A stretch of DNA of 64,000 nt from Clostridiales bacterium. GTDB taxonomy: Bacteria > Bacillota > Clostridia > Saccharofermentanales > Saccharofermentanaceae. The notes under the pieces were generated by a model, which saw only the letters and a program-made list of their open reading frames with translations, searched no databases and was not told where the DNA came from. The translations under genes and the position numbers were made by a program. Of this stretch, positions 4,744 through 62,749 are shown piece by piece. The stretch is taken from NCBI GenBank assembly GCA_017551625.1, contig JAFZLF010000057.1, positions 1-64,000 of the forward strand, in the 5' to 3' direction. Position 1 is the first letter of the stretch; each line of letters begins with the position of its first letter.

Positions 4744-4824
4744 TTTATTATCCTCCTTCTTTGTTGTAACGTCCCAAAATACATAAACACTTACTGAAGA
4801 ATCGGTTCTCGAGCACCTAAGTCT

Positions 4825-4853: not shown

Positions 4854-4900
4854 CAAAAACGGTCGAAGCAAATCCGTCTGTTTCTGATAGTATTGTGCAG

Positions 4901-4919
4901 TGCTTGAAAACAGGGCATT
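4901..4919 (-). promoter_or_regulatory. 19-bp element repeated upstream of two transcription units, copy 1
   Basis: TGCTTGAAAACAGGGCATT on the plus strand is identical at 11438-11456. The copies lie 158 and 149 bases upstream of the start codons of the small secreted protein (4743) and the XRE regulator (11289), in the same orientation. A common operator is plausible. Confidence 0.5.
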
Positions 4920-5004
4920 CCAAAGATAAGCCAAACCATTTCACAAAAGGATGAGAAAGATTGAGCCAACCTCAAAAATGAGCAACGAAAGGCATCGAGC
5001 AGAA

Positions 5005-7191
5005 CTACTGATAATTCTCCTGCATATAAAGAGTAAGCCTCTTCTCAAGCGTATCCGCAATCTGTTCCGGATCTCTGGTTTGCGTGAAGTAGCTGTTTAC
5101 CTCATCGGAAATGATATCAAACACTCCCCAGTCATAGGTAGCAATTGTATCCACAGTGGAAATGGTCTCCAGAAACAGATCCATCGCCTCCTGTGTCGCC
5201 GGCGTCTTGCTCCGCAAATATCCAATCAGAGTTTCATCTTTCACGGCATCGGGATTCTGCACCATGTCGCAGAGAGTATCCAGCGCATACTGCGTGACCG
5301 GAATGACTCCCGCTACCAGCGTCTGCTTCTGCACATCCTCCGAAAGGAGCATCGAGAGAACTTCCCAGCACTTGTCTTTATTCTCGGCCGTCGTAGAAAT
5401 AGCCAGACAGCACTGCGGAATAGCAAGATTCACTGACCCATGTACAGAAGGATATCCGATATACCGAAAATCGTCTTTTGCCGCAGCAACATCGGCCACA
5501 TCATAGAAGCTGGCCACAAGTGCCGGACACATAAGCACGCGTCCGTTGGACACATCCTCCAGCGATGCATACCCAGTTGTCGACACAGGAACAGACAGCG
5601 CCTCGGTAATCATCTCAACCAATTCCTCATGGGACATTTTTCTCTGCCCGTCATATGCCCCCCACAAATCGGCAAACTGATATCGGATAGCTTCATCCAC
5701 AATATCCGATGCCGCCGACATGGAATAAGTGATCTTATTTTCCTGCGCATATTTATATAAACTGAATATAGAAGTGTCTGGCACGGAATCTGCAACTCTT
5801 TTCAAAACATAGCGGCCATACATCTGATATCCAGAAAAAAGCTGATAACAGGCACCGCTGCCATCGTAGAAAAGACCTTCAGATGCACTGTTGAGCGGAA
5901 GAATTGTTGTCTCATTGTCCTGCAGATATTTGGCCATATCTATGACCATTCCGTTTCTCCCCATATACTCATAGTCAAAACTCGTTCCATAGAAGATATC
6001 AGGTGTATTTCCATCGTTAAAATATTGCATCAGATTCAAAATTGCCCTGCGGCGCTCATCCGGCAAAACATATCCGAATCGATCAGAATAATCTTCCAAG
6101 ATGACCCGATATTCTTTACTCGTTACATTAAATGTATACACCACCCATTGAAGGACCTGATCGTCATATACACCATATCCGCCGATTTTAATCGTCTGCA
6201 CTTTCGAGCGGTCAATCGAGGGATCATAATGGAAAATAAGCACCTCTGCAGAATCATCTCTATATTCATAACTGATTGCGAACCTCTCATCGTCAAGAGG
6301 ATGATAGCCCGCCGGTGTACTTAGGTTCTTCCTGGGTGGACAAATATCAATGCAATTCCAGTCCGCCAAACAATTTACTTTCATATTCTGAAGATCAACT
6401 TTGTACTCTCCATCGGGATTAAAGAAGTACGAACCGCCGATAATAAGCCGGCCGTTGAGACCTACATCCTTTCCTCCCACCACAAACGGACACTCTCCGG
6501 TATCGAAATTTACTTCGTGATATGCGATTTCTCCCATATCGATTTCTTCAACAGCATAGAACTTGCTATTATCTTCGAAGAATCCCTCTTTTTCAGTATA
6601 GAGAGAAAAACCGGGCTTGATTGATTTTACAAGTGTGCCATCTATTGTATATCGGTTGATTGTTGATCCGCCGACGATCACAAACCCATCCGAGACAGGC
6701 GATACATAGTGCGGATCAAAATCCGTCTCAATCGTCCTTACCGGTTCCCCGGTCTTTTTATCCAAGAAAACCGCTGTCCTTTGAAGATCCATAGTTTTTT
6801 CTTCGTTGTTCTCCAGGTCCGATTTTTTATATCCCAGAAAAACATACTCATTAGCCAGTACTGCACACGGAGCCTGACTTCCCAGTAATTCCAAAGTATA
6901 GAGCAGTTTTCCGGAATCATCCACGGTAAACACATCGGTATGCTGATCGACAACAAAATGATTCTCATCGTACTTTGAATAGATGGCAGAGATACAGCAA
7001 TTCTCCCCATCGCGAATCACATTTCGGAGCATCATCTTATACCCCTCTTTTTGCGGAAGCGTAAAAGAAACAGAAGAATACGCATTCGAATCATAGTGCA
7101 TAGCTTCCGTATTTTTTTTACATCCGTATAGGCTAAGCAGAACTGAAGAAATTAGAATACCTATAGTCAGTTTTTTCAAATAATGGCGCAT
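5005..7191 (-). CDS. Solute-binding lipoprotein with N-terminal propeller-like domain
   Basis: 728 residues, about 300 more than a usual extracellular solute-binding protein. A signal peptide with lipobox (LYGC, Cys 24) is followed by ~300 residues of repeated beta-rich segments (VFTVDDSGKLLYTLE, VFLDKKTGEPVRTIE, NRYTIDGTLVKSI), which read like propeller blades. The rest is a family-1 solute-binding domain (NTPDIFYGTSF, VIDMAKYL, GYPSVHG). The start lies 17 bases after the 452-residue lipoprotein gene, so the two are co-transcribed. No permease or ATPase is adjacent, so it may sense or scavenge rather than feed a dedicated transporter. Confidence 0.8.
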   Translation of the reverse strand: MRHYLKKLTIGILISSVLLSLYGCKKNTEAMHYDSNAYSSVSFTLPQKEGYKMMLRNVIRDGENCCISAIYSKYDENHFVVDQHTDVFTVDDSGKLLYTLELLGSQAPCAVLANEYVFLGYKKSDLENNEEKTMDLQRTAVFLDKKTGEPVRTIETDFDPHYVSPVSDGFVIVGGSTINRYTIDGTLVKSIKPGFSLYTEKEGFFEDNSKFYAVEEIDMGEIAYHEVNFDTGECPFVVGGKDVGLNGRLIIGGSYFFNPDGEYKVDLQNMKVNCLADWNCIDICPPRKNLSTPAGYHPLDDERFAISYEYRDDSAEVLIFHYDPSIDRSKVQTIKIGGYGVYDDQVLQWVVYTFNVTSKEYRVILEDYSDRFGYVLPDERRRAILNLMQYFNDGNTPDIFYGTSFDYEYMGRNGMVIDMAKYLQDNETTILPLNSASEGLFYDGSGACYQLFSGYQMYGRYVLKRVADSVPDTSIFSLYKYAQENKITYSMSAASDIVDEAIRYQFADLWGAYDGQRKMSHEELVEMITEALSVPVSTTGYASLEDVSNGRVLMCPALVASFYDVADVAAAKDDFRYIGYPSVHGSVNLAIPQCCLAISTTAENKDKCWEVLSMLLSEDVQKQTLVAGVIPVTQYALDTLCDMVQNPDAVKDETLIGYLRSKTPATQEAMDLFLETISTVDTIATYDWGVFDIISDEVNSYFTQTRDPEQIADTLEKRLTLYMQENYQ

Positions 7192-7208
7192 GAATAATCT
7201 CCCACTTT

Positions 7209-8567
7209 TTATCCTGGGTCCTTCGCATGCGGATACAGATACTCATTCTCCTCTGGTCCGTACATCTCCGAATAGATAGATTCCCCGTTAACTGCATTGA
7301 CCATCACCGTGCCATTATAGACTATTTCCCCGTCCGTTGTTTTTGAATTTGTCGCTGTATAATACGCAATCCATACAGGCACAATTGTCAGTTCATGTGT
7401 TTCGAGATGCTCATCGATTGAGAAGGGATCATACGGATATGGATCCAACACCGTATATGCCAATTCCATGCAATAAACAACTACATCTGTCTCCCAAACA
7501 TAATTCATTCCAAACTCGTCGGGATCTGCCGATGCTTTTTGATGATTATAGGCGTTGTATATGATAGCATTTCTGATTCCAGGCAGGCATTCGTCTGCAG
7601 GGAACACAGATAACCCTTCGGATACAGTATCCCCTATCGCATATTTGTCCACAAGAAACATCACAACAGCAGTATTCGAAGAGTTAATAAAACACCCGTC
7701 CCAATTTTCAAGCGGATTATACTCCGGCTGACGGGATAATTCTGTTTCTTCCGACCATTCTAAAACAGGATAGGCTTTGTTTTCACGCCGTATGGGAATC
7801 CCATCCAAATATTGAGTACTCAGCGGGATATACTGTACCGACTCTATATCGGATGGTATCTGAAAGCCACCAATGCTTCTCAAATAATTGACGTAATCAG
7901 TTTCCCAAGGAAAATCACAAGTATTATATACCCAGCAAAGCACTGGACTATTGATGTCTATTCCCACAGTTTCTGCCACTTCAGAAGCTTCTGAGATCTC
8001 CGAAAAAGAGCAGACTTGCACATTGTAAATATTGTCGAGCACTTTTTCTTTGTCCAGAGCAACATAATCGTCTCCCGCATCGATATGTCCATTCCACTCT
8101 TCGCAGGAGATTGGAACAGGCCAGCCCTCACACCAGTCAATCAACCTCCCAACTCCTCTTTTTTGCCACACGTCTTCTTGCCATTGTTCTGGTGTATCCG
8201 CATATTTCGCATGATATACATTTATCGTTTTCTTTCCATAATCCACCAAGAGAATGTCTTTTTTGAAAGAAATCGTAAAATCATATTCTTGGGGCTTGTT
8301 CGGATAGGAAAGCATACGCTCCGGATCAGACACTCGCACCAGCCACGAATTTGGATCAGGATCATCAGGCAATTCTGAAGACCTGTCGTTTTCCGTTGAA
8401 GAGATTGCATCTCCCGACTGAATAATATCTTGCGAAATGACAATGTCTATGCTTTGGGTCGAACGACTCACTTCCTGCGAAAACGAGTGACCGCAGGAAG
8501 GCAAGACTAGCATATTCGCAAATAAAACTGCGATAATACCACAATCGAGATATCGTTTCATTAACAT
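7209..8567 (-). CDS. Secreted lipoprotein of unknown function (paralogue of 2973-4250)
   Basis: 452 residues with signal peptide and lipobox LPSC. The domain is the same as in the 2973-4250 product, with diverged sequence. It sits between a small secreted protein (8588-9013) and the propeller/binding lipoprotein (5005-7191), with gaps of 20 and 17 bases, so the three form one operon. The same order, with a broken third gene, recurs at 953-4743. No catalytic motif is visible; the three products may work together at the cell surface. Confidence 0.75.
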   Translation of the reverse strand: MLMKRYLDCGIIAVLFANMLVLPSCGHSFSQEVSRSTQSIDIVISQDIIQSGDAISSTENDRSSELPDDPDPNSWLVRVSDPERMLSYPNKPQEYDFTISFKKDILLVDYGKKTINVYHAKYADTPEQWQEDVWQKRGVGRLIDWCEGWPVPISCEEWNGHIDAGDDYVALDKEKVLDNIYNVQVCSFSEISEASEVAETVGIDINSPVLCWVYNTCDFPWETDYVNYLRSIGGFQIPSDIESVQYIPLSTQYLDGIPIRRENKAYPVLEWSEETELSRQPEYNPLENWDGCFINSSNTAVVMFLVDKYAIGDTVSEGLSVFPADECLPGIRNAIIYNAYNHQKASADPDEFGMNYVWETDVVVYCMELAYTVLDPYPYDPFSIDEHLETHELTIVPVWIAYYTATNSKTTDGEIVYNGTVMVNAVNGESIYSEMYGPEENEYLYPHAKDPG

Positions 8568-8587
8568 TTTACTTTACCACATAGCGA

Positions 8588-9013
8588 TTACGCATTTGCA
8601 TACCAATAGAAAGTTGCAGAATAGTAAATGTTAAGATTGCTATTTGATTTTATTATAAACTTCTGACCATCCAATCCAAACCCAGACAAATATGAATAAT
8701 CATAACCGTTGGAATTCACCTGAGAGAATGATGCATTATTGCTTGCAGCCGTGAGTGGATAAGTTCTGTACAACCTGGCATACACATAATAGGAACTAGG
8801 AATGCTATTTTCTGGATAATTGTTAAAATGTACATACGTCAATGCCATATGACAAAGCGAATGATATCCGCTCGTTTCATCAGTTTCTGAACTGTATGCA
8901 CTTGAACCTGCACTAACATATAACGTGCTTGACACAGCATTTACCGACCAAGAAATGCATGCAATAATACTTAGCATAATAAGGACAGACACAAATTTCG
9001 TAGCTGGCTTCAT
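8588..9013 (-). CDS. Small secreted protein, paralogue 2
   Basis: 141 residues with signal peptide (ends SVNA). The mature part shares HFNNYPENSIPSSYYV and a SNSNLNIYY segment with paralogue 1 (4297-4743). It is first in a three-gene operon driven by the promoter at 9078-9106. Ribosome site GGAGGA. Function unknown. Confidence 0.8.
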   Translation of the reverse strand: MKPATKFVSVLIMLSIIACISWSVNAVSSTLYVSAGSSAYSSETDETSGYHSLCHMALTYVHFNNYPENSIPSSYYVYARLYRTYPLTAASNNASFSQVNSNGYDYSYLSGFGLDGQKFIIKSNSNLNIYYSATFYWYANA

Positions 9014-9077
9014 ATAGATATCCTCCTATTTCTGTTAAATGTTTTAGAACCGATATTCCAAGCGAGTGGTCATTTCG

Positions 9078-9106
9078 ATCCTAACATGGGTTTTTATCTG
9101 TGTCAA
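9078..9106 (-). promoter_or_regulatory. Sigma-A promoter of the secreted-protein operon
   Basis: Minus strand TTGACA (9101-9106), 17-base spacer, TAGGAT (9078-9083), 65 bases upstream of the start at 9013. Confidence 0.7.
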
Positions 9107-9172
9107 CAAGAATCGTCTGCGCAAAAACATCGGATTTTTGCCATTCTGCCCAAACGTTACTATTGCGACTTT

Positions 9173-9622
9173 TTAGACCTCGTCCCATTCGTAGATTACT
9201 TCAAACGAAAGGTTGCTATCACTATTAGTTCTAAGTCTGATACATTGCCCAAATCCCCCATTACTGTTATCAAGATAATAGTTGTACCCAAACGTAGAGG
9301 GTTGCGAAAAAGCAATGTTACTATTCCCTATAGGCCAAGCATCTGAGATCGGAGATGTTGAGGAAGGAAAGGCATAGAACCTGACATAAACATAATATGA
9401 TGATGGAATACACCCGGCAGGATAATATACAAACTTAACATAAGTCATCGCTAGATGCATCTGAATGTAATTCGAATTTGTCGGGATTATGCTTTCAGAG
9501 GAAAACGCACTCGCTCCCGCTCCGACATGTATATCGCTGGTAATGGCATTCACCGAAATAGAAAGATTGCAAAGAATACACACCACAACCAACATCGACA
9601 ACAATCGCCTCATTCTTTTCAT
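9173..9622 (-). CDS. Small secreted protein, paralogue 3
   Basis: A third member of the family: signal peptide ending SVNA, then YYPAGCIPSSYYVYVRFY and SNLSFEVIYEW near the C-terminus. The ATG at 9622 is preferred over one 27 bases upstream because AGGGAG lies 11 bases before it. Unlike paralogues 1 and 2 it is not followed by a lipoprotein gene. It lies 46 bases downstream of the secreted protein at 9669-10250 and probably belongs to the regulator-led operon starting at 11289. Confidence 0.75.
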   Translation of the reverse strand: MKRMRRLLSMLVVVCILCNLSISVNAITSDIHVGAGASAFSSESIIPTNSNYIQMHLAMTYVKFVYYPAGCIPSSYYVYVRFYAFPSSTSPISDAWPIGNSNIAFSQPSTFGYNYYLDNSNGGFGQCIRLRTNSDSNLSFEVIYEWDEV

Positions 9623-9668
9623 GTTTATTCTTTCTCCCTCTTGCCACAATGAATATAGTTCCTACAAA

Positions 9669-10250
9669 TTAATACGTTCCCAAATTACCGTGGTTATCGC
9701 ACGTAAGCGTAAGCGAATAGCTTTTGGTTTGGAAAAGATACGTAGCAGTTCCGCTGATTCTGGCATATGCAACAGTTGCAGAATTATTCCCGGTACTGAT
9801 TGTTGGAGAACTTGACCACATGGACATTAGGGGCTTGCTGAACGATCCATTTGCAGAAGTACATGCACACCACGAATACTCAAATTGAAAAGTTCCCTCT
9901 ACTCGAATGGTAAAAATCCTATTTCCATCGTCGTCGTAATAATTCTTCTCCACTTCTGCTGTTTCACTTTGAGGACTCCGTTCTTTCTCTCGTATTGTAG
10001 TCGTACATACGAAGTCCCCTTCATAATCTATATTTATAGAAAATAAAACAACATCACTTTCATCGTATGAATATTGTTGATTGCAATAATCTTCCAGCAC
10101 CTTCTCAAAATCTTCCTGAGAACTGACCAGATGCGATTCACAATACTCAAGCAAACTAAACTCATCATTCGACGCCTTTATATACTGAAAAGGAACAAGT
10201 AACAATACCGCAATCAATAAAACACTTATCATCGTCTTACATTTTTCCAT
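9669..10250 (-). CDS. Secreted protein of unknown function
   Basis: 193 residues: signal peptide (residues 1-26), an acidic helical segment with SSQEDFEKVLEDYCNQQY, then a beta-rich serine/threonine domain with WCACTSANGSF and a C-terminal TLTCDNHGNLG. The C-terminal half recalls the small secreted family in composition but lacks its IPSSYY motif. It is 14 bases downstream of the second XRE gene, so it is probably under the same control. No function can be assigned. Confidence 0.7.
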   Translation of the reverse strand: MEKCKTMISVLLIAVLLLVPFQYIKASNDEFSLLEYCESHLVSSQEDFEKVLEDYCNQQYSYDESDVVLFSINIDYEGDFVCTTTIREKERSPQSETAEVEKNYYDDDGNRIFTIRVEGTFQFEYSWCACTSANGSFSKPLMSMWSSSPTISTGNNSATVAYARISGTATYLFQTKSYSLTLTCDNHGNLGTY

Positions 10251-10264
10251 TTTAATTCCTCCAA

Positions 10265-10807
10265 TTAACTATCAGGTGTTACAAAATGTGCAGCACCTGT
10301 CCCATTCACAATAGGCTCTCCATTTTTTGCAACAAGATGTGCCGACCCTTCTGCTCCACCACCTGGGCCGATTAGATTTCTTCTTATCGACAATCCTGCA
10401 AACAGAAGTATCAGAAAAACAATTCCCAAAACAAGTATTCTCTTGTTTATCTTTTTTGCCAATCTTATCTGCTCAATTTTGTCCATTCTACTCTTTTGAG
10501 CTTCAGATAGATCGATATTCATTTCTGCCATATTATCAGACAGCGAATTGATGTCATGTGCAATTGTTGTCATAATATCCCTGTTTTTAGAGAATCCTGT
10601 TTTCCTCTCAGGATCTTCAGTTTTTAGTTTCTCTGGCGAGACTTGAATGATTTCCGCTATACGCACAAGCATAGTCTCATCCGGAATATTGTTACCACAT
10701 TCCCAGCGAGATATCTGACGCCTATCGACACCAAGGGTCCTTGCAAGTTTATCCTGACTGATTCCGGCTATTTGTCGATACTTGCGAATTTGTTTGCCAA
10801 TAATGAT
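10265..10807 (-). CDS. XRE-family regulator with C-terminal transmembrane segment, non-standard start codon
   Basis: The N-terminal helix-turn-helix (IRKYRQIAGISQDKLARTLG then DRRQISRWECG) is typical of XRE/Cro regulators. A linker and one membrane segment (residues ~125-145) follow, then a short tail containing two AHLV/AHFV segments. The helix-turn-helix is only complete if translation begins at ATC (10805-10807) or one of the two following ATT codons. An AGGAGGGAGG ribosome site lies immediately upstream and no ATG, GTG or TTG is in frame there; the first in-frame ATG (10672) would delete the DNA-binding domain. The gene follows the 11289 gene by 14 bases. Confidence 0.7.
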   Translation of the reverse strand: MIIGKQIRKYRQIAGISQDKLARTLGVDRRQISRWECGNNIPDETMLVRIAEIIQVSPEKLKTEDPERKTGFSKNRDIMTTIAHDINSLSDNMAEMNIDLSEAQKSRMDKIEQIRLAKKINKRILVLGIVFLILLFAGLSIRRNLIGPGGGAEGSAHLVAKNGEPIVNGTGAAHFVTPDS

Positions 10808-10821
10808 ATCCTCCCTCCTTC

Positions 10822-11289
10822 CTATCTGCCTTCAATGTACTCGAAGGAATTGTAGTATCCGTCCACATAAAATAACACAAGTATAATGATGGCGATGATC
10901 GCCAACACGAGAATTATTATCACTCTGTTCCTGTGTAGTCTTTTTAGTTCAATATCCAATTCCTCATCCTGTCCCAAAAGCTGAACTCGTCTGTTTTCCT
11001 GCACTTCAGAAGAAAAACGTGATATGCCTTTCACTATCTCCTGGAGTCTTTTACCACTTTCCTCGTCGCGCTGTATTACTTGTTCAGGTGTTAACGGAAG
11101 AAGTTCATCCTCCTCCGACAATCCGAATATTCCTCTCAACATCTTTATCTCTTTGGAAGAAGGTACCAGATAGTCCTCTTCCCATTTTGCGACAACGCTT
11201 GGAGATGTATATGTTTTATCAGCCAGTTCTTTCTTTGATAATCCAGCTTCAATTCTAAAACGGCGAATAGTCTCTCCTAAGGTCTCCAT
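10822..11289 (-). CDS. XRE-family regulator with C-terminal transmembrane segment
   Basis: 155 residues. The N-terminal helix-turn-helix (IRRFRIEAGLSKKELADKTY, then SPSVVAKWEED) is followed by a charged linker and a membrane helix (IIILVLAIIAIIILVLFYV, residues ~124-143). It has the same layout as the next gene, so the two may form a membrane-tethered regulator pair for the secreted-protein operons. First gene of the unit 11289-9173. The 19-bp element at 11438-11456 lies upstream. Confidence 0.8.
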   Translation of the reverse strand: METLGETIRRFRIEAGLSKKELADKTYTSPSVVAKWEEDYLVPSSKEIKMLRGIFGLSEEDELLPLTPEQVIQRDEESGKRLQEIVKGISRFSSEVQENRRVQLLGQDEELDIELKRLHRNRVIIILVLAIIAIIILVLFYVDGYYNSFEYIEGR

Positions 11290-11654
11290 TTTTACTCCAT
11301 CATAGTTTCGTTATACCTTCGAACACAATTTTCTACACAGATTGATACAAATCCACATTCTTTTTAACAGAATTGCTCCATAATCTCAAGGACAACATCC
11401 ACGCGCAAAAAACGATTATTTCGATCGTTTTGCACAATGCTTGAAAACAGGGCATTACCGCCCATCTGAATATGTTGAGACTTTTCTTTGTCGTCACGAT
11501 CTATGAAACTCAACCATAACAATACACACCAACTGTAGTATTTCGAGATTTCAGTGCAGATAAATTTGTATTAAAAAAAACGTAGTTTTTGAAGAGTGAT
11601 TTCTAGGTTGTTTTTTACCTATTTCTGTTATTCTTGATATAGGAGGCGATAATT
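11290..11654. promoter_or_regulatory. Divergent control region between XRE operon and Phd antitoxin
   Basis: No gene. It holds the second copy of the 19-bp element (11438-11456), identical to 4901-4919. A TATAAC hexamer on the minus strand about 30 bases before the XRE start is a possible -10 without a good -35. The right part is AT-rich and leads to AGGAGGCGA at 11640-11648, the ribosome site of the antitoxin gene. Confidence 0.5.
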
Positions 11655-11942
11655 ATGACCATTGATGCAAATGCAATCGTGACAGCAACAGAAGCAAATC
11701 AGAACTTTTCCAGAGTGGCAAAGATAGCCGAAAAGAAAGGTCATGTTGTTGTGTTCAAGAATAATCGTCCAAAATATCTGCTGATTGACCTGGATACAGA
11801 ACCGCAGATCGATATGACTGAAGATGAAAGAATTGAGTTTGTTGCCGCACGCATTCTTCGTGAACACAAAGCAGCATTTGAGGAGCTTGCAAAGCAGAAA
11901 AACTCTCCTCCGACGAGTCCATACGCTAAGGCTCCCGACTGA
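11655..11942 (+). CDS. Phd/YefM-type antitoxin, orphan
   Basis: 95 residues. The N-terminal MTIDANAIVTATEANQNFSR is the DNA-binding fold of Phd/YefM antitoxins, followed by VVVFKNNRPKYLLID and an acidic C-terminal tail that would normally wrap the toxin. Strong AGGAGG ribosome site. No Doc, YoeB or ParE toxin follows: the next 200 bases hold repeats and a terminator. It may be a solitary antitoxin, a regulator, or the remnant of a pair. Confidence 0.85.
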   Translation: MTIDANAIVTATEANQNFSRVAKIAEKKGHVVVFKNNRPKYLLIDLDTEPQIDMTEDERIEFVAARILREHKAAFEELAKQKNSPPTSPYAKAPD

Positions 11943-11963
11943 TCGTGTCAGCGAACTAAGGGT

Positions 11964-12049
11964 ACAAAAACTCCTCACGCTCTATAACGTAACGAAAAAA
12001 GAAAAGGATCTCCGAGCGACGAGTTATCCGCAAGGATGAGAAAGATCGA
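11964..12049 (+). repeat. Dispersed ~84-bp repeat, copy 2
   Basis: Matches 780-863. Contains TAACGAAAAAAGAAAAGG, the 16-mer GATCTCCGAGCGACGA, then GTTATCC-GCAA-GGATGAG, which can fold as a short hairpin. It lies next to terminator family member B. Confidence 0.7.
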
Positions 12050-53476: not shown

Positions 53477-56029
53477 TTACTTCTTCCAGAAAAGGAATCC
53501 CTTCTTTTCCGCTTTCTTCGCGCCTTCTTTCAGGAACGCCACGCCGGTATTGCTTGACACAAAGTTCTTACAGTCTTCCCTGTCCAGACAGATCTTCAGT
53601 GCGCCTTCCCCCGTTACCGGATCACCCTTCTCCCAATCCCAGTCGATCAGGAACAGTTCCTGATCCAGCATAAGATAGCGTCCGTCGCAGCTAAAACAGA
53701 GATCTCTTCTTGGCGCGATCCTCTTCTCGAGAAGAACTTTTCCACTGCGCTCATCTTTGAAGGCATACGAGTTATCCGATCCCGAATGGGAATACCTTCT
53801 GGTGATCTTCACTTTCCCTCTCCACAGAAGATATCCTCCCGGATGGAAAACCTTCGTTTTCGTGCCACGCTGGGCGCCTTTCGGCTGCGTATCCAGTTCC
53901 AGTCTCATGACCGATACGCCCTTACCGATCGGAGCGATCGTCCCTCCTTCGAGGTCGATCTCATGCATGAGATAATTACAGGCGATCGTCTTCAGATTAT
54001 GCACTCTGTACTTGCAGTCATGCTCACATTTCTTATTGCTGAAATCCTGACTTCTTTTCTTTGTCGTATATTCCGGATCGGCAGCTTCCCGGACTTCATC
54101 GTACGTCACGAGGATCGCTTTTTTCTCACCTCGAAGCACTTGGAAATACGCGGTCCTTCCGGGAAGCGGAATCGAGAAGATCTGTTCTCCCGTCGCACGG
54201 TTGTAGACATCCAGAGTCTGTTCCTCCGGCGCGTATACGATATCTCCGGTCCCGAGATGCATCCCCGGCTCCATCGTGAAGACTTCCTTCAGCGGCCCCA
54301 GGCGTTTCTCTTCTTTTCTGATCTCATACCGGTACATGACACCGGTGATGCTGTCGGCTCTTCTCGTATGGTCTTTGTTCTCGACTTTAAAAGCATATGT
54401 ACTTCCGAGATTGATCGGATAGACTGCGTGGATCCCTGCAGGCTGCGCGATTCCTCCGAGCATCGAGCTGAGTCTTGCGATGTCATCGAGATGCCCGTCC
54501 GAAGCCACCTCCCGCACTTCACGAAGGATCGTCATCGCACCATCGGGGTCTTTCGCCGCGACTCTGCTCTCCATCTTCGCAAACGCCTCTCTGAAGTACG
54601 CTCTTTCTTTTTGTATCTCTTCTTCCGACTGGAAATGCGCCAGTACCCATGGCGCCTCGTACGGACTTTTTTCTTTCAGCGCCTCTCTTATCTCCGGCGC
54701 ATATTCACGTACGGATTCCGGGATGTTCTCTCCCCATGTATCGAGGAGCGCCTGCGCTTCTTTTGTATCTCCGTTTCGCATGTGAAGAAGAAGCGCAAAC
54801 GCTTCATTCTTCTTATTATCGAAGAAGACTTTCTGTTCGAAAGATCCGGGCTTTTCTTCCGAAAGGATCAAGTAGTTATAGCGCGCGGGATTCTCTCCGA
54901 ACCAGATCATGTTTCTGGCCTGATCGAGGATCGTCATGGCCTTCTTTCTCTGCCCGAGTTCGAGGTAGCTCAGCGCACGGTTATTCAGCGTGAGTGGCGA
55001 ATTCCATTCCGCGCGGGGCTCCGGGCGTGGGTATTCTTTTCCTGTGACCGACTTATATCTTTCCAGAAGCGATTGCTCGTGAAAAGAAAGAAAATCTTCT
55101 TTCGCAGAAAGGATCGTCCGGAGCATGGAGAAGATCCGATCCTGGATCTGCGCTCTCGCATTTGAAGCAAGCTCCGTAAGCTGCTCCGGCACGTCACCTC
55201 CGAGTCTCCATCTTCTCTCCCCCAGATACATCTCCAGTACCGTCAGCGCCCAGGAATACACATCCATCCATGCCCTCGGTTTTTCTCCTTCCGCCTGTTC
55301 CCGCGGGCAGTATTCAGGTGTATAACCGGAGACACGCAGCACATCTGCGCCGGTACTTGATGCACCTCCTTTCGCAGAAGAAGCACTGCCTCTTCCTAGA
55401 ATCCCCGCCACCTTCGACAGACCGAAGTCCGCGACCTTAGCCTCCCCGGACTTCGTCAGAAGGATATTGGCCGGCTTGATGTCCTGATGGATCAGTCCTT
55501 TTTCATGCGAATACAGGATACCTCGTGCCGTCTGGATCGCGATGTCGAGGATACGCTCCTGCACTTCTTCCCCAGTGCCTTCGTAGAGAGAGCCGTCCCT
55601 GATACAATCTTTGAGGCTTCCGCCGTCCATCCACTCCGAGAAGATCGTCGGTACGCCGCCGATCTCGCGCACGTAGTAACAGGACACGATGTTCGGATGA
55701 AGTCCGAGCCCGATCCAGTTCTCACATTCTTTAATGAATTCCTCTTTCTTTTTCTCGCTTCCTTCCGCGAAGAAACGAGGCTGGGGACGCTTCATGGCGA
55801 GGTCCGTGCCCCATCCCTTATGGTGTACTTTCCACACACTTCCCATACCGCCCGATATCGGATCGGAGAGGACCTGATATGTCTCCAGAAGCACATCTTT
55901 TTCCCGGATCTGCTCGTTAGAGATCACGTCTTCTTTCCGCGAAGCGGCATCCTCCAGCACTGCGCGGGAGAACTCTTCCATTCCGGATTCTTTACTTATG
56001 GAAATACTGACACTCAGAGAATCATCCAT
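53477..56029 (-). CDS. Ser/Thr protein kinase with C-terminal TPR-like and propeller-like region
   Basis: 850 residues. The kinase domain (~45-330) has Gly-loop GGMGSVWKV, Lys in LAMKRP, catalytic loop LIHQDIKPANILL (HQD, a non-RD loop), DFG in ADFGLSK and SGYTPEYCPREQ. A helical, TPR-like part (~345-520: LTLNNRALSYLELGQRKKAM) leads into ~300 residues of beta-rich repeats (LDVYNRATGEQIFSIPLPG, SYAFKDERSGKVLLEK). No membrane helix, unlike PrkC-type kinases, so it is cytoplasmic. The ATG at 56029 overlaps the TIR gene end by 8 bases. Such kinases often accompany TIR, TPR and phosphatase partners in signalling islands. Confidence 0.9.
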   Translation of the reverse strand: MDDSLSVSISISKESGMEEFSRAVLEDAASRKEDVISNEQIREKDVLLETYQVLSDPISGGMGSVWKVHHKGWGTDLAMKRPQPRFFAEGSEKKKEEFIKECENWIGLGLHPNIVSCYYVREIGGVPTIFSEWMDGGSLKDCIRDGSLYEGTGEEVQERILDIAIQTARGILYSHEKGLIHQDIKPANILLTKSGEAKVADFGLSKVAGILGRGSASSAKGGASSTGADVLRVSGYTPEYCPREQAEGEKPRAWMDVYSWALTVLEMYLGERRWRLGGDVPEQLTELASNARAQIQDRIFSMLRTILSAKEDFLSFHEQSLLERYKSVTGKEYPRPEPRAEWNSPLTLNNRALSYLELGQRKKAMTILDQARNMIWFGENPARYNYLILSEEKPGSFEQKVFFDNKKNEAFALLLHMRNGDTKEAQALLDTWGENIPESVREYAPEIREALKEKSPYEAPWVLAHFQSEEEIQKERAYFREAFAKMESRVAAKDPDGAMTILREVREVASDGHLDDIARLSSMLGGIAQPAGIHAVYPINLGSTYAFKVENKDHTRRADSITGVMYRYEIRKEEKRLGPLKEVFTMEPGMHLGTGDIVYAPEEQTLDVYNRATGEQIFSIPLPGRTAYFQVLRGEKKAILVTYDEVREAADPEYTTKKRSQDFSNKKCEHDCKYRVHNLKTIACNYLMHEIDLEGGTIAPIGKGVSVMRLELDTQPKGAQRGTKTKVFHPGGYLLWRGKVKITRRYSHSGSDNSYAFKDERSGKVLLEKRIAPRRDLCFSCDGRYLMLDQELFLIDWDWEKGDPVTGEGALKICLDREDCKNFVSSNTGVAFLKEGAKKAEKKGFLFWKK

Positions 56030-56888
56030 CACTATCTTCTCCTTCACGTTTCTCGTCAGATCTCTTGCGAAATGCTTCCAGTTCTTCGTCGGACACGGCA
56101 TAGAATCCATGGACCAGATGCATGAGCAGTTTGTAGTCGTCATCCGTCTGTTCATAGTCGGGAGCACCATGCTTGCCGACGATGAAGTATTGATCCAGTT
56201 TCAGTTCCTGCGCCACGTGAAGCTCGCGCTCCGACATCGTGAAATGCTTGTTTCGTTTCTCGTCATATCCGATGTGCGTCCGCAGATTACATACCAGTTT
56301 CTCTCCGGAACCGGAGCCCTCCTCCAGCTTGTCCTGGATGTCCGGATAGAAAGAGAGCATCAGGTCGAACATCGGTCTTTTTACTTCTCTCACCGACCAC
56401 TCCCGCGTCGGAGGGATACCAAGCTTCGTCAGATGCTCTTTCAGGATCTCCGGAAGATTCGGATCCTTCGTATCGACATATACCACGGAATCGCTCTCAG
56501 AAGGGATCTTCCTCTCCTTTTCCGGAAGAGCTTTTTCTTCCTCCGGCACTTTGATATAGACATGGAGGCGCTTCTTTCTTAGCCCTTCCGCAAATGCCTC
56601 TTCGCACATATTGACCACACGTTTCCGTCCTTCGTATGGCCGCAGATAGATCATGATCGCACATCTTTCTACCGCGTCCGACATCTCGCCTCTCCAGACC
56701 ATGTTCAGGGATTCTTCATCAAACCAGATTCGGTACTCCGCTTTATCGAGCGCCTGCACGACCCTGACCGCATCGGTAAAGAGATCCTGTGGATAGGACA
56801 GATAGACGAAACGGCTGACCTGGTTACATGCCCAGACGCCCCAGGGATTCTCCTGTTCCCGAACGACATCGTCGAATATACCTGCCAT
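56022..56888 (-). CDS. TIR-domain protein
   Basis: 288 residues. A TIR-like fold at ~25-165: RFVYLSYPQDLFTDAVRVV (first strand and helix), YRIWFDEESLNM (BB-loop region), CAIMIYLRPYEGRKRVVNMCEEAF (fourth strand and the helix with a candidate catalytic Glu), RLHVYIKV. The C-terminal half is alpha-helical, with acidic ends and no named domain. It lies 10 bases after the double-TIR gene and overlaps the kinase gene by 8 bases, so all three are translated together. TIR domains of this type commonly consume NAD+ or bind partner TIRs. Confidence 0.8.
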   Translation of the reverse strand: MAGIFDDVVREQENPWGVWACNQVSRFVYLSYPQDLFTDAVRVVQALDKAEYRIWFDEESLNMVWRGEMSDAVERCAIMIYLRPYEGRKRVVNMCEEAFAEGLRKKRLHVYIKVPEEEKALPEKERKIPSESDSVVYVDTKDPNLPEILKEHLTKLGIPPTREWSVREVKRPMFDLMLSFYPDIQDKLEEGSGSGEKLVCNLRTHIGYDEKRNKHFTMSERELHVAQELKLDQYFIVGKHGAPDYEQTDDDYKLLMHLVHGFYAVSDEELEAFRKRSDEKREGEDSDG

Positions 56889-56898
56889 AGGTACCTCC

Positions 56899-59139
56899 CT
56901 AACCGAGCTTCCCGATCTCCTGGTCGGCCGTCTTGAGATATTTCACGTACTCTCTGTCCTGTAAGGAGAGTTCCTCCCAGATCTTCCGGGCACGGAGAAG
57001 CAAATCTCTGTCCTTCTTAAATAGTCCGAAGTTAAAGCATGCGACTGCCAGCTCATGTCCCACATCGTCAGACGGGGAGGTCGCAAAGATCTCCTCCCGA
57101 AGTCCGACCGACTTCACGTAGTACTCTTCTGCCGACTCAAGATCTCCACCATGTTTCTTCGCACTTGCGATCTTCTCACAGGTCGCTGCATAGTTTCTCC
57201 GATACTGGAGAAGCGGTCTTTCAGAGATCATCTTAAGAAGGATCTCTTCCGCTTCATGGAAACGCTCCATTGCCTCCTCCGGATATCCGGTCTTCACAAG
57301 AATATCGCCATATTTCAGAAGGCTGACCGCGCAGTCATCTGCCGCCTGAGGGGTACGAAGTTCATCCGACAGACTTCTGTCGATGGAGAGAGCCTCTTTA
57401 TACTGCTCCATCGCCTGCGGATAGTCCTTGCCGGCCTTACTGATATTCCCGAGTTTCGTCAGGATCGAGGACAGATCGCGTCTGGCTGTCGCCGAAGATC
57501 TGTCCGACGCCAGTTCCTGCCTGAGAGAGAAAGCCTCTTCGTAATACTTCTTCGCCTGATCGAGTTCCTTCTTTTTCCGGAAGAGATCACCGAGACGTTC
57601 ATCTGCGATAGATAAGTCCTTTCGCGCACGGGCCGTCCCGATCTCCCTGGCGAGACGCTCGTAGATCTGCCTCGCCTTGAAATAATACCGCTGCGCCGGA
57701 TCCGGTTCTTTACGGACCAGATAGAGACTGCCGAGACGGTTACACACGACCGCCATATCTCTCTCCGATTCGCGGATCCCGACCTCTTCTTTTAGTTCTT
57801 CACATAGGGCGAAAGCCTCCTCGGCCGCTACGATCGCCGCGTCGATATCCTTATCCTCGCGGCAAAGATCCGACAGTTTCAGGAGTGACTTTAAGTACTT
57901 CGTGCCGAAGCCCTTGTGCTCGTCCGGCGAATAGTTCTTCCCGTATTCTTCCTTATACTGCTCTGTGAGGACTTTCTGCCACTTGATGGCCATCGCGATG
58001 CTCAAGTTCACTCCGTCGCCGGTCTGGTACATCTCGACGAGTTTCTCCGTCGCCTCGAAGCAGGGCTGCGGATCTGCCGCCGCCGACTCGAGAAGACCCA
58101 GCGCTCTTGCATAATCGACCTCGACATCGATGCCGTTTAAGTAGGCAAGTCCGATGAAGAACCGATGCTGCGCGGACCCGTCGTTACACTTCTTCGCTAT
58201 TCTTTCCAACGCCGCGACAAAAGCACTGTCCATGGCGTCTTTTTGGTGTTCGTCCTGCAGGTCCTCGATTCTCTTGTACTTGAATTCTTCGTGTCCCTCG
58301 AGCGCCTCGCGATCGATCCTCCAGTCCTTCCCTTCCACGGCATCTATGTCTTCGTACATCTCGACCGGGACGATCTCGAACTCATTATCGCCCGAGCCGT
58401 TCTTTCTGTCGCGAGCCATCGGATACTCGACCCGCATGACATAGTTTCCCTCTTCCAGAAGGTGCGGTGTGACCACCATCGCAAAGAGCGCACTCTTACG
58501 GAAGGCATCCGCGATCGCTTCGTTAAAGCCTTCGCCCGGCACGAGAAATTCATCGTACCAGATGGCAATGTCGCGGAACTGCGGATTCTCATGTATGAGA
58601 CGCATCAGGCGCTGGGCGTGGCGACGGTCTTTCTTTCTGTAACTCAGGAATACATATGCGTCAAAAGCATCCCTGACCTTTTCGGCCAGTTCATCACCGA
58701 TCAGCACCGAGGTAAGAAAAGTCTTCAGCACTTCCTCATACGGGGTAGCTGTCGGGTCTTTGACATAGCGGTTCACGACCTGGATCTTCGCGCAGTTGTT
58801 ACTGAACTTATAGCCGAGTCCGGTCTCCATCATGATCGGCAGCAACGGGATATGGCGCTCCAGCGCATACGGAAGTTCGACCTCGCGCGCCCGGTTCGGC
58901 GTGAAGATAAAGTCAGAGGTAACCGCGAAGACGACGAGCTGCATATCCGAGATCTCGTCCACATGATCCACCGCATCAGAAAGATCCTCATCGTACCAGA
59001 TCGCGCAGTTCGACTGACGCAGAATATCCTCGGAAACGAGCGGAAACGCCATTGCAAAATCATTCGGGTGACAGGAAAAATACACACGCGGCTTCCCTTT
59101 CGGATCGCTCATTCCTCTCGTGATGTATCTCATCGCCAT
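56899..59139 (-). CDS. Double-TIR protein with Sel1/TPR repeats
   Basis: 746 residues. TIR 1 (~15-140): VYFSCHPNDF, AIWYDEDLS, LVVFAVTSDFI, REVELPYALE. TIR 2 (~158-290): YVFLSYRKKDRRHAQRLM, IAIWYDEFLVPGEGF, LFAMVVTPHLLEEG, then MRVEYPMA with the position of the catalytic Glu. Then a Sel1-like repeat (YLNGIDVEVDYARALGLLES) and about eight TPRs (~410-740; e.g. ERLGDLFRKKKELDQAKKYY). Starts ATG 59139 after GGGAGGTG. TPRs suggest assembly with a partner such as the kinase or the RyR protein. Two TIRs in one chain could pair intramolecularly. Confidence 0.88.
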   Translation of the reverse strand: MAMRYITRGMSDPKGKPRVYFSCHPNDFAMAFPLVSEDILRQSNCAIWYDEDLSDAVDHVDEISDMQLVVFAVTSDFIFTPNRAREVELPYALERHIPLLPIMMETGLGYKFSNNCAKIQVVNRYVKDPTATPYEEVLKTFLTSVLIGDELAEKVRDAFDAYVFLSYRKKDRRHAQRLMRLIHENPQFRDIAIWYDEFLVPGEGFNEAIADAFRKSALFAMVVTPHLLEEGNYVMRVEYPMARDRKNGSGDNEFEIVPVEMYEDIDAVEGKDWRIDREALEGHEEFKYKRIEDLQDEHQKDAMDSAFVAALERIAKKCNDGSAQHRFFIGLAYLNGIDVEVDYARALGLLESAAADPQPCFEATEKLVEMYQTGDGVNLSIAMAIKWQKVLTEQYKEEYGKNYSPDEHKGFGTKYLKSLLKLSDLCREDKDIDAAIVAAEEAFALCEELKEEVGIRESERDMAVVCNRLGSLYLVRKEPDPAQRYYFKARQIYERLAREIGTARARKDLSIADERLGDLFRKKKELDQAKKYYEEAFSLRQELASDRSSATARRDLSSILTKLGNISKAGKDYPQAMEQYKEALSIDRSLSDELRTPQAADDCAVSLLKYGDILVKTGYPEEAMERFHEAEEILLKMISERPLLQYRRNYAATCEKIASAKKHGGDLESAEEYYVKSVGLREEIFATSPSDDVGHELAVACFNFGLFKKDRDLLLRARKIWEELSLQDREYVKYLKTADQEIGKLG

Positions 59140-59160: not shown

Positions 59161-61236
59161 CTATCCGCCCAGTGAATAGATATAGATCCGCACACCGTCG
59201 AACTTCTTCAGGATCTTCAGAAGGCTGTTAAACGGGCGCCAGTCCTTGTCCTGTTCTTCCGGGGGAAGTTCGTCGTAGTGCTTCTTGATTTCTTCTGTGG
59301 TCGGGTTCCCGTTCATCGTCAGTTTATGGCGCCGCATCTGCTCACGGAGCTTCCCGGACAGTTCTTTCTTCTCCGCAACCGTGAGATCCTTGCGATTTTC
59401 TACCGCCGTCTCATAGTCGTTTCCCACGACCCATCCCATATCGATATGCTCACGCACCCATCTCTCGTGCTCCATCGGCGCGAAGATCGCGGCGTGCTCC
59501 GGCGTGAACTCCGTCACCATCTCGTAGTCCACCGGCTTGTCCGTATAGAAGCAGTTGATGGCGTCGAGATACCGGCTGAAATTCTTCGCGCGGTTCAGCG
59601 TCGACAGCTGATACTCGAGAGCCAGATCCTCGAAGATCTTCTCGAGCTGTTCGACCGGTGTGCCCTCGCCTTTTCTCCTTCCGTGAAGCGCCACTGCGAA
59701 ATCATAAAGGTGCAGGAAGTTACTGCTCGACAGGAAGATATGCTTATTCTTTCTGTCGTTTTTCCGTACACTCGGTGTAACATGAAGCGGGATATCCGTC
59801 GTATCTACGATCAACTTGATGTCTGCCGCGAAACGCTGTTCTTTCTCGGCCATGTCGCTATAGGCCTTGAGGCGCGGCGCATCGCCGATCTCACCGCCAT
59901 CTTCCCACGCCGCATACTCCTCTTTAAAGGCATTGATCTTGTCGATCTCCATGTCGTCATAGTAATAACAGGCGCGGATCTCTCCATCGGTAAAGTCGAA
60001 GTCCACCGCCATCGGATGAAGCTCCGTTCTGGAGTTCCTGCCGTACGCCGTCCTGTCCCAGCACTGGAGCTCGTCGCAGATCATCAGGAGGAAGGCCAGC
60101 GGGTGATCCTGCATGCGTATCGGTCCCTTGCGTTTGTTCTTGTCCTTATCTTTGTAGAAAGCGATCGAGAACTTGAAAAGACTGTTATGAAGCATGATGG
60201 CCGACAGCACATCGATATGCATCTTCTGGATCCGATCTCCGCCGAGCGACGATTCCAGTTCCCGGAAGAGTCTTCCGGCGCTAAAGAAAGCGTGGTCCAT
60301 AAAGTACCCGAAATCCTCCGGATCGGTCGGTTTCCTCTCTAGGATATCGAGCATCTTCTCTTCCGTAAATCCATAACGATCACCGAGTTTAGCTGCGATG
60401 TCGAAGGCCAGGATCTCCGTGACCGTATCAAACTCTTTCCCGTAAAGGCGGAGGAACTGTTTCTTTGCTTCCTGTCCGATATCGACGAGTGCGCCGAGAT
60501 CCCGGTACGCGACATAGATGCTCCCTTCCCCGCGCTTCTGGCGGTTCACTTCGAAATAGGACATGACCTGTTCGAAAGGAAGCTCGAAGGGATACCCGAT
60601 ATCGTGGAAGAGCGCCGTCAGTCCCCAGTACTCGAGGAACAGATTCGCCGCCGATGCGCCTTCGTCCTGACCCTCCTCACGCATGCCGTTTCGCACGTCA
60701 GCATAGAAGGCATCAAATGTTTCCCGAAAGGTCATATTCGTCTCATAGATCGCAAGACCCAGCATGAAAACATATACCGAGTGAGAATAGTGATCTCTGT
60801 GCTTCATGAGAAGAGAACTGCCGTTACTCTCAAACTCCGACAGCAGCTCCACCATCTTCTTCGATTTGCCGTAATGCCCGAGGAAGATCTCTAAGAAACA
60901 GTAGTAGACATCGTAGGCATCTTCCGCCACACCCGAATCGAAGAAGCGTCCGAGTGCTCTCTCGAGGCACAGACGGTTGTTATCCATCTGCATATCGTAA
61001 GGGATCTGGTTCTTCCGAAGCCCCGTGCCCTGATACTCGCCCGACTCGTCTTCCTTCTTCGTGATCTCCGGATCGAACTTCAGCTGCTCGCATCTTTCGT
61101 GGATGAACCGCAGCGCCGCAGACTTCAGATCCATCCCTGACCCGTTTTCATAAAGGGCCGGCTCAAAAGGACCGACGTCTCTACCGAACCGCTGACGGTT
61201 CACTTGCCTCATCTTTGCCCATGCCGTATATGCCAT
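59161..61236 (-). CDS. HD-domain phosphohydrolase-like protein with C-terminal RyR domain
   Basis: 691 residues, cytoplasmic. The HD-type metal motif is spread as HRDHYSHS (~146), LFHDIGYP (HD at 211-212), MDHAF and MLHNS; LLMICDELQCWDR near residue 400 fits the last metal Asp of HD phosphohydrolases. Residues ~588-691 match the RyR domain (EHERWVREHIDMGWVVGND, then HKLTMNG, HYDELPPEEQDKDWRPF). HD domains often cleave nucleotide signals, and RyR domains are thought to bind ligands. ATG 61236 after GGGAGGA; extended -10 promoter at 61324-61332. Confidence 0.78.
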   Translation of the reverse strand: MAYTAWAKMRQVNRQRFGRDVGPFEPALYENGSGMDLKSAALRFIHERCEQLKFDPEITKKEDESGEYQGTGLRKNQIPYDMQMDNNRLCLERALGRFFDSGVAEDAYDVYYCFLEIFLGHYGKSKKMVELLSEFESNGSSLLMKHRDHYSHSVYVFMLGLAIYETNMTFRETFDAFYADVRNGMREEGQDEGASAANLFLEYWGLTALFHDIGYPFELPFEQVMSYFEVNRQKRGEGSIYVAYRDLGALVDIGQEAKKQFLRLYGKEFDTVTEILAFDIAAKLGDRYGFTEEKMLDILERKPTDPEDFGYFMDHAFFSAGRLFRELESSLGGDRIQKMHIDVLSAIMLHNSLFKFSIAFYKDKDKNKRKGPIRMQDHPLAFLLMICDELQCWDRTAYGRNSRTELHPMAVDFDFTDGEIRACYYYDDMEIDKINAFKEEYAAWEDGGEIGDAPRLKAYSDMAEKEQRFAADIKLIVDTTDIPLHVTPSVRKNDRKNKHIFLSSSNFLHLYDFAVALHGRRKGEGTPVEQLEKIFEDLALEYQLSTLNRAKNFSRYLDAINCFYTDKPVDYEMVTEFTPEHAAIFAPMEHERWVREHIDMGWVVGNDYETAVENRKDLTVAEKKELSGKLREQMRRHKLTMNGNPTTEEIKKHYDELPPEEQDKDWRPFNSLLKILKKFDGVRIYIYSLGG

Positions 61237-61323
61237 ATGATGCGTCCTCCCACGCCCATGTTCCGGCCAGGCCTGCACGAACGGCATTTCCGGCCGGTTT
61301 CACCCGTGATCCAACATATAGCC

Positions 61324-61332
61324 ATTATACCA
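61324..61332 (-). promoter_or_regulatory. Extended -10 promoter before the HD-RyR gene
   Basis: Minus strand TGGTATAAT (TATAAT at 61324-61329 with upstream TGG), 88 bases before the start at 61236 and just beyond the lipase stop. No convincing -35. Confidence 0.5.
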
Positions 61333-61342
61333 TAGGGAGGTC

Positions 61343-62698
61343 TTAAAAACCTTTCTTCTTAAGGTCGGCGACGATCTGCACGAAGAGCTCCCGCACGTCA
61401 AATCCATCGATATTCTCGCGGTTGAGATCGATGACATCGCCATGTGAGATACCACGCTTCCCGTTCACGGTAAGGAAGTGATAATCTTCTCCCCAGTTAA
61501 AAGATTTCGCACCGACGAGCCCATCGTTCGGGCCATCGAAGTGACCCACCAGGAATGTCGAGAAATTGAGCGGGAACTGACCGGAAGTCGCATGGTTCAG
61601 TTTGGATCCGTAGCTCTGGCAGTAGATGCCCTCCGGATCCGGCATCTCTTCATTTAATCTCGCGCAGGCCGAAGATGTCAGGTCGGTTACCGCCGCGAGG
61701 AAATTCGGATTCGGATCGCCGGCTTTACGAAGCGCCGCCTCATACATGGAGGCCACCCGCACCTGATGGGATTCCCCGATCTTACTTAAGAGATAATCCG
61801 CAAATTCACAACCTCTGTGTGGTGTATTGATCGTCGTCAGGCTGGCCACATACGGAGCCGCGCCGAATCTCGCGATCGCCATTCTGCTGTCGAGTCCGCC
61901 CTTCGAGTGGGCGATGATGTTCACCTTCCCGCAGCCGGTCTCCTCGCAGATCTTCTTTATACGCTCCGCAAGCTCCATTCCGCTTGTCGTGACCGAGGCA
62001 GCCGACTGCTGGTTCCCGTAGAAGATGCGCGCGCCGTTCTTCTCGAGCACCGCCGGGACGCGTCCCCAGTAGTTAAAGAAACGAAAGTCACGGAAGAAGA
62101 CTCCGTGCACCATGAGGATCGGATATTTGCACGCGCAGATCTGTTCGGAGGCGCGCGATTCATCCAGGAGGATCTTGTCGTTTTCGAACTTCACTTCCTT
62201 ATCGGCGATGCGGATAATGATGCCCAGCGCGATCAGGTGCGCGATCGGGATCATGCCGCAGAGGATACCGATCACACGGTACTTCATGCCGAGCTGGTTC
62301 GTCGTGATATAGACCCGGACGATGCCGTTCCAGAAGATGATATTTTCGATCACCACGATGAGGACGATATGCCCCGTCCACTTCCACGGCGCATCGCCGA
62401 TCGCAGGGATATCCCGGCCTTCAAGCGCCCCACACATACCGGGGATATTGAAGGCCAGATTGATGACCATCGTGACCAGAAATATCTTCAGCAGCATCGA
62501 TCCAGCCTGCGTATTCTTAAGGCGCAGGGAGTGTATCTTTGCCGATGCTCCCGGGAAGACCGGCAGCACCTGGAGGACCAGGAAAAGAGGGATCAGAAGC
62601 AGCAGGAACCACTTTGAAACAGGCAGCATCACGAAGTTACCTAAGACCAGCCCGCATGCTGTGCCAAGAATGAAATAAAGGATCTCCAGAACGATCAT
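61343..62698 (-). CDS. Membrane-anchored lipase-like alpha/beta hydrolase
   Basis: 451 residues. Four or five membrane helices (~1-175: LYFILGTACGLVLGNFVML, VLIVVIENIIFWNGIV and others) precede a lipase domain: PILMVHGVFF oxyanion segment, nucleophile AHSKGG, INTPHRG, GPNDGLV (acid) and RGISHGDVIDL (His). This is the arrangement of triacylglycerol-lipase-like proteins of clostridia. Start ATG 62698 after GGGGAGA. Located between the ATPase and HD-RyR genes in the same direction; it may be an ordinary envelope lipase or a membrane-attacking effector of the island. Confidence 0.82.
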   Translation of the reverse strand: MIVLEILYFILGTACGLVLGNFVMLPVSKWFLLLLIPLFLVLQVLPVFPGASAKIHSLRLKNTQAGSMLLKIFLVTMVINLAFNIPGMCGALEGRDIPAIGDAPWKWTGHIVLIVVIENIIFWNGIVRVYITTNQLGMKYRVIGILCGMIPIAHLIALGIIIRIADKEVKFENDKILLDESRASEQICACKYPILMVHGVFFRDFRFFNYWGRVPAVLEKNGARIFYGNQQSAASVTTSGMELAERIKKICEETGCGKVNIIAHSKGGLDSRMAIARFGAAPYVASLTTINTPHRGCEFADYLLSKIGESHQVRVASMYEAALRKAGDPNPNFLAAVTDLTSSACARLNEEMPDPEGIYCQSYGSKLNHATSGQFPLNFSTFLVGHFDGPNDGLVGAKSFNWGEDYHFLTVNGKRGISHGDVIDLNRENIDGFDVRELFVQIVADLKKKGF

Positions 62699-62749
62699 AA
62701 TCATATCTCCCCGAATCATCTTTATGTAGTACGCATCTTCCGACCCGAA

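Follow-up and report, generated by a model that had tools for sequence, protein, structure and literature searches.

A putative HD hydrolase fused to a RyR domain and encoded beside TIR genes: a candidate arm of TIR-based nucleotide signalling in Clostridia

Described RyR and TIR systems and the HD-RyR locus

The closest described relatives of the domain considered here are phage RyR proteins of the RyDEP or sponge type (PF02026; Lopez Rivera et al. 2026 preprint, PMC13232231). RyDEP is a 2′/3′cADPR glycosidase that uses H75, W78, H100, and D117, with H75 and D117 as its dyad, and among eight other phage RyR homologues tested, six bind 2′/3′cADPR and none cleaves it (PMC13232231). Animal Repeat12 domains are known to bind adenine nucleotides (PMC13232231). 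Other points of comparison are Thoeris, in which a ThsB TIR protein is encoded with ThsA or another effector, and nucleotide-centred conflict systems that draw on SLOG/LSDAT, SLATT, and RelA/SpoT modules.

The window, by which we mean the whole stretch of 64,000 nucleotides analysed here (contig JAFZLF010000057.1 of a Clostridiales bacterium), carries on its minus strand an uninterrupted open reading frame for a 691-amino-acid HD-RyR fusion protein (59161 to 61236). This feature is defined by its translation, its start context, an alignment of 48 full-length HD-RyR sequences (alignment A1), and an AlphaFold model. The start codon chosen in the sequence-only reading, ATG 61236, is supported by a Shine–Dalgarno GGAGG located 9 nt upstream (61246 to 61250), whereas an alternative ATG at 61287 has no such motif and was rejected.

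Further minus-strand genes follow closely. A gene for a 746-amino-acid TIR-TIR-Sel1/TPR protein (56899 to 59139; Pfam TIR_2 at 46.8 bits, over the cut-off) begins 21 nt past the HD-RyR stop codon. A second TIR gene, whose product has 288 amino acids (56022 to 56888; TIR_2 at E = 6e-5, below the cut-off, and 4e-23 with our in-house TIR profile), lies 10 nt past the stop of the TIR-TIR-TPR gene. The ATG at 56029 of a Ser/Thr protein kinase gene (53477 to 56029; Pfam Pkinase at 97 bits), whose product has a C-terminal repeat region, creates an 8-nt overlap with the end of the second TIR gene. Adjoining TIR genes had been claimed from the sequence, and the claim holds, with two TIR domains in the first product and one in the second. 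The 288-amino-acid TIR gene is also found in the nearest relative (L002), and kinase genes occur near HD-RyR in several further loci.

Upstream of HD-RyR, a TATAAT hexamer preceded by TG (61324 to 61329, minus strand) was read from the sequence as an extended −10-like element. It is tentatively proposed as a possible operon promoter; a consensus promoter scan at the locus gave nothing above chance and did not pick it up. On the other side of this element is a gene for a membrane alpha/beta hydrolase (61343 to 62719, minus strand; Pfam). This gene was rejected as a system member on synteny, being common only to the window and its two nearest relatives (L002 and L003), and it is probably outside the system. 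An upstream AAA gene was also rejected; L002 and L003 have an Mfd-like gene there, further upstream. Elsewhere in the window, positions 2001 to 12000 have a lower G+C content (0.39 to 0.43 versus about 0.52) and perhaps represent an acquired element. The three longest minus-strand open reading frames of that stretch (2973 to 4274, 5005 to 7191, and 7209 to 8567) matched no Pfam family.

The window protein shares with the phage proteins the domain family, the H..W/D pocket residues, and probably a second His, and both belong to the same biological field of TIR-derived NAD signals. In contrast to the phage proteins, its RyR domain is bacterial, is located C-terminal to an HD hydrolase, and carries an insertion of about 22 residues. 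Its gene also shares an operon with TIR genes, whereas the phage genes work against them. Given this context of a bacterial chromosome with adjoining TIR genes, a phage anti-defence role for the locus was rejected.

Thoeris likewise places one or more TIR genes beside a putative nucleotide-responsive effector. However, in the window HD-RyR takes the place of the effector candidate, accompanied by additional kinase, TPR, and second TIR genes. The window TIR proteins match PADLOC ThsB models only weakly (E = 5e-6), and none of ten window proteins matched a ThsA model. Because a recognised ThsA is lacking, we do not file the system as Thoeris. The nucleotide-centred conflict systems resemble it in that RyR is joined to RelA_SpoT and LSDAT in one protein (L144) and adjoins SLATT/DUF4231-like 2TM proteins in others. 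We did not find HD-RyR described as a sensor-effector in such systems, although a 2015 survey (10.1093/nar/gkv1267) lies outside this comparison and an earlier mention is possible. A full-text literature search on RyR with TIR, Thoeris, and anti-phage terms, which did not cover the 2015 and 2020 surveys, returned the phage RyR preprint and unrelated reviews but no paper on host RyR-TIR operons, and we make no claim to priority.

Our preferred reading, to which we assign a probability of just under one half (about 0.48), is that HD-RyR would serve as the effector arm that responds to the signal in an operon for TIR-based NAD-nucleotide signalling.

The RyR domain and the HD core

Taken alone, the window protein gives only a marginal RyR assignment because its Pfam scores fall below the cut-offs. 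Pfam RyR (PF02026) matches residues 567 to 633 with E = 0.0012 and 19.5 bits, compared to a cut-off of 27.4 bits, so the RyR match expected in the sequence-only reading was obtained, but at a sub-threshold score. Pfam HD is also below its cut-off (E = 0.021). No PADLOC or NCBIfam model matches HD-RyR, and the missing PADLOC model and the low Pfam scores both count against the effector-arm reading.

The wider family provides stronger matches. A database scan yielded 54 relatives with 55 to 87% identity, mainly in Clostridia and Erysipelotrichia MAGs of gut and rumen origin, and Pfam RyR was matched in 32 of the 48 A1 members at E ≤ 0.05 (best E = 1.1e-5). A whole-genome PF02026 search in the class revealed a second HD-RyR clade, with proteins of about 575 amino acids whose RyR domains score over the Pfam cut-off at 48 to 61 bits (59.7 bits for L096). 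These proteins are 24 to 26% identical to the query clade over about 540 residues, and the A1 profile matches them across both the HD and RyR parts. When a profile of the C-terminal region was searched against 177,635 PDB sequences, all ten matches were ryanodine receptors (E from 0.009 to 0.38); a profile of the full A1 alignment produced no match among PDB sequences. In addition, hhalign gave 67% probability (E = 5e-5) for a pairing of the C-terminus of the query family with solo RyR domains from bacteria.

The full-length AlphaFold model of HD-RyR (pLDDT 85.6 and pTM 0.90, with pLDDT of about 90 over the RyR domain) has human RyR3 Repeat12 with AMP-PCP as its top PDB fold match (9ls7; probability 0.92, E = 0.16), and the adenine-nucleotide pocket residues are conserved in kind. 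Unlike animal Repeat12, the window protein has one RyR unit instead of a tandem repeat, and it is a soluble HD enzyme rather than a calcium channel. Modelling the RyR domain in isolation was less successful (pLDDT 73.6), and RyR2 came no higher than ranks 25 and 29 among the matches of that model, both with E > 5. Thus, structure prediction bears out the RyR claim for the full-length model but not for the isolated domain, and support for a RyR/Repeat12 fold is moderate.

Could the C-terminus instead be an unrelated helical domain, with the HD-TIR linkage incidental? The sub-threshold query score and the failure of the isolated-domain model to retrieve RyR would fit this idea. It is nevertheless very improbable and already largely refuted by the second clade that scores over the cut-off, the matches in 32 A1 members, the exclusive retrieval of ryanodine receptors among PDB sequences, the RyR3 match of the better model, and the drop in TIR gene density from 54 per 100 kb close to HD-RyR to none farther away (see below). 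Because the family members, the second clade, the PDB profile matches, the hhalign result, and the full-length model agree, we regard the assignment as settled. The RyR identity of the C-terminus, proposed in the sequence-only reading, is therefore firm from these lines combined, while no single score is firm alone. The earlier extent of residues 580 to 691 was correctly C-terminal; the profiles, hhalign, fold match, and residue alignment place a slightly larger domain at about 566 to 686 (59179 to 59541, minus strand), including the insertion of about 22 residues.

The putative HD metal-dependent hydrolase core spans residues of about 141 to 400 (60037 to 60816, minus strand), as judged from the sub-threshold Pfam HD match, conserved residues, and weak fold matches to the HD-GYP protein Bd1817 and a dGTPase. 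The H...HD...D metal-ligand pattern of the HD metal-dependent phosphohydrolase superfamily is present. Its putative ligands (H149, H152, H211-D212, H315, H350, and D388) are kept in 47 to 48 of the 48 A1 members, with H152 in 47, and in all four second-clade proteins. The earlier claim of an HD hydrolase fused to RyR is upheld by this conservation across both clades, even with Pfam HD itself sub-threshold, and the protein can be placed in the RyR and HD families with reasonable certainty.

The RyR pocket is similarly conserved. Residues H590, W593, W602, and D665 are invariant in A1 (48/48) and are also present in the second clade and in solo RyR genes; H590, W593, and D665 align at the positions of RyDEP H75, W78, and D117. 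H637 is invariant in the same 48 sequences, but not in the second clade. From its motif context, H637 is probably the equivalent of RyDEP H100, an equivalence made less certain because the insertion of about 22 residues precedes it.

Linkage with TIR genes and other RyR architectures

TIR genes were scored with the in-house profile in the 40 HD-RyR loci that have at least 2.5 kb downstream. A same-strand TIR gene lies within 2.5 kb of HD-RyR in 26 of these, directly adjacent in 19; a few of the counted cases have TIR directly upstream (L016 and L042), and L047 is a further upstream case. In 46 loci dereplicated at 90%, TIR genes number 54 per 100 kb within the first kb downstream of HD-RyR, 5 at 1 to 3 kb, and 2 at 3 to 6 kb. 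The distant flanks of the same loci, beyond 5 to 6 kb on both sides and totalling 207 kb, contain none, and the entire window genome (3.18 Mb) has seven TIR_2 matches. Linkage at this level greatly exceeds what chance would give. Among 114 neighbouring proteins, Pfam TIR_2 is the commonest family, with 29 members.

The second clade also has TIR genes directly downstream in L097, L098, L141, and L142, with a 4-nt overlap in the last two; no TIR gene directly follows in L096, L100, or L139. Solo RyR genes of about 95 amino acids with a full-length match are directly followed by TIR in six of 11 sampled cases (L086, L090, L091, L094, L095, and L137). RyR-TIR pairing is thus not a chance feature of one genome, as stand-alone RyR genes and both of the diverged HD-RyR clades show it repeatedly. 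Certain HD-RyR loci, for example L007, L022, and L045, lack a nearby TIR gene, and these weigh against the effector-arm reading.

Pairwise distances of HD-RyR and TIR-TIR-TPR proteins correlate across 15 loci (Mantel r = 0.89; 0 of 5000 permutations), and therefore the two tend to travel together. In the TIR-TIR-TPR protein, the candidate catalytic Glu of the second TIR domain, E238, is present in all 18 relatives, and the first TIR domain is less conserved (E88 in 14 of 18). Over the loci, RyR genes adjoin TIR proteins with varied C-terminal architectures, including TPR, LRR, DUF5050, and beta-helix regions.

Tight operon coupling and co-inheritance would also fit a protein complex. One alternative is that RyR helps TIR proteins to dock or assemble, or acts as a metabolic gauge of ATP, ADPR, or NAD, with no cyclic ADP-ribose messenger involved. 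Binding of adenine nucleotides by Repeat12 (9ls7 with AMP-PCP; PMC13232231) is compatible with a gauge. We consider this alternative improbable, since the best-characterised RyR ligands in bacteria–phage conflict are TIR products (PMC13232231) and the wide variation among the TIR partners makes a common small molecule the simpler link.

Other genes occupy the position after HD-RyR in some loci. Several have a SLATT/DUF4231-like 2TM protein directly downstream instead of TIR. Profile support for this assignment is weak (E = 0.005 for L023 and, for the best of the neighbours, 7e-6). In L046 (8440 to 10026), a clostripain-family (caspase-clan) peptidase takes the place of TIR and is a possible alternative effector. 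A small gene resembling dual-specificity phosphatases directly follows TIR in L006 (14363 to 14854), L009 (14235 to 14783), and L011 (14667 to 15098), with kinases nearby in L006 and L009, which suggests that the system may be under phosphorylation control.

RyR domains are also found at the C-termini of unrelated effector-like proteins, specifically TrkA_N membrane proteins (L110 and L138), AAA proteins (L101, L103, and L143), and a RelA_SpoT and LSDAT protein (L144). Because the domain is fused to several unrelated modules of this kind, its pattern is that of a portable sensor. The TrkA_N membrane proteins with C-terminal RyR are encoded within L138 (7985 to 11629; TrkA_N 55 bits, RyR 66 bits), L140 (8340 to 14910), and L110 (3067 to 5007). 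A DUF4231/SLATT-like protein follows in L138 and L140, and then a TIR-NACHT-TPR gene in L140. The L144 gene (9813 to 12407, minus strand) encodes a single 864-amino-acid protein with RelA_SpoT, LSDAT/SLOG (TRPM-type, just below the cut-off), and RyR, thereby uniting modules from two animal calcium-channel families.

In L094 (2182 to 7378) and L095 (1 to 4658), a multi-TM protein ends in a RyR domain, just under the cut-off at 27.0 and 25.5 bits, respectively, and is followed by a solo RyR gene and then TIR, which is a TIR-LRR in L094. This arrangement resembles a RyR-domain channel combined with a maker of cyclic nucleotides. The L086 locus (5788 to 11981) has a kinase with a Card1-like/PD-DEXK C-terminal end, a solo RyR, and then TIR-TIR. 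These partners are those of the window (kinase, RyR, and TIR-TIR) in a different arrangement.

HD-RyR is distributed patchily, occurring in four of 115 genomes of the family and five of 391 of the class. The sole IMG/VR match (L126; IMGVR_UViG_2898606423_000005) carries HD-RyR with a serine recombinase and a MobA/MobL relaxase. It is listed as viral but looks like a mobilisable element and is not evidently a phage. The patchy spread and this element fit accessory mobile defence cargo, which does not by itself prove defence.

Possible roles of HD-RyR

Under the effector-arm reading, the TPR part of TIR-TIR-TPR, perhaps under kinase control, would detect infection or stress. The second TIR domain, with its intact candidate catalytic site, would then convert NAD into a cyclic ADP-ribose-type messenger. 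The RyR domain would take up this messenger in the same pocket that is used by phage RyDEP and animal RyR Repeat12, and binding would activate the attached HD part, a metal-dependent phosphohydrolase or nuclease, as the effector. In this scheme, the domain identities, the conservation of both active sites, and the operon linkage are observed, and we infer which ligand this protein binds, which way control runs, what the HD enzyme acts on, and that the system serves defence.

That RyR recognises NAD-derived TIR products, as the sequence-only reading had proposed, is well founded for the domain family because the phage ligands are 2′/3′cADPR and the equivalents of H75, W78, D117, and probably H100 are kept; the recurrent pairing with TIR genes agrees with this. 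For the sensor role that was part of the same proposal, signal clearing is a competing possibility. The pocket residues cannot tell a sensor from a hydrolase because they are equally conserved in phage homologues that only bind and in those that cleave, and the sequence evidence fits an effector and an off-switch alike.

The main rival is therefore an off-switch, in which RyR would capture or cleave the cyclic ADP-ribose messenger and the HD phosphohydrolase would destroy the product or the messenger. Ring nucleases, which limit CRISPR type III signalling, offer a parallel, and HD enzymes commonly cut phosphate esters, the kind of substrate that this role would require. Many TIR-adjoining RyR genes, the solo genes among them, have no effector attached, as would be expected of a sponge or regulator more than of an effector arm, and the SLATT/DUF4231-like protein that follows HD-RyR in several loci could be a separate effector. 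Moreover, RyDEP, the sole RyR protein with demonstrated catalysis, degrades 2′/3′cADPR (PMC13232231), and the equivalents of its dyad in HD-RyR, H590 and D665, are invariant. However, RyDEP alone cleaved among the RyR homologues tested (PMC13232231), RyR fusions to membrane, AAA, and RelA_SpoT modules favour sensing, and a dedicated phosphohydrolase would be redundant beside a RyR glycosidase. We judge the off-switch somewhat unlikely and retain the effector arm as the preferred reading.

The sequence-only reading had argued by analogy with classical cADPR in animals. This analogy is probably off in detail, as the RyR ligands shown in phages are 2′/3′cADPR (PMC13232231). One broader speculation, which we hold to be doubtful, is that bacterial RyR domains form one broad family of receptors for cyclic ADP-ribose signals of TIR origin, mounted on HD, TrkA_N, AAA, and RelA_SpoT/LSDAT proteins, and that the animal link between cADPR and RyR descends from this bacterial pairing. 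Direct action of cyclic ADP-ribose on ryanodine receptors has long been disputed.

With a TIR enzyme and a soluble RyR-domain enzyme encoded together, the operon offers a simple biochemical system for testing RyR as a receptor for TIR-made nucleotides. If the effector-arm reading is true, HD-RyR would be a new effector class for TIR-based immunity, and its existence would account for the RyR proteins with which phages sequester these signals.
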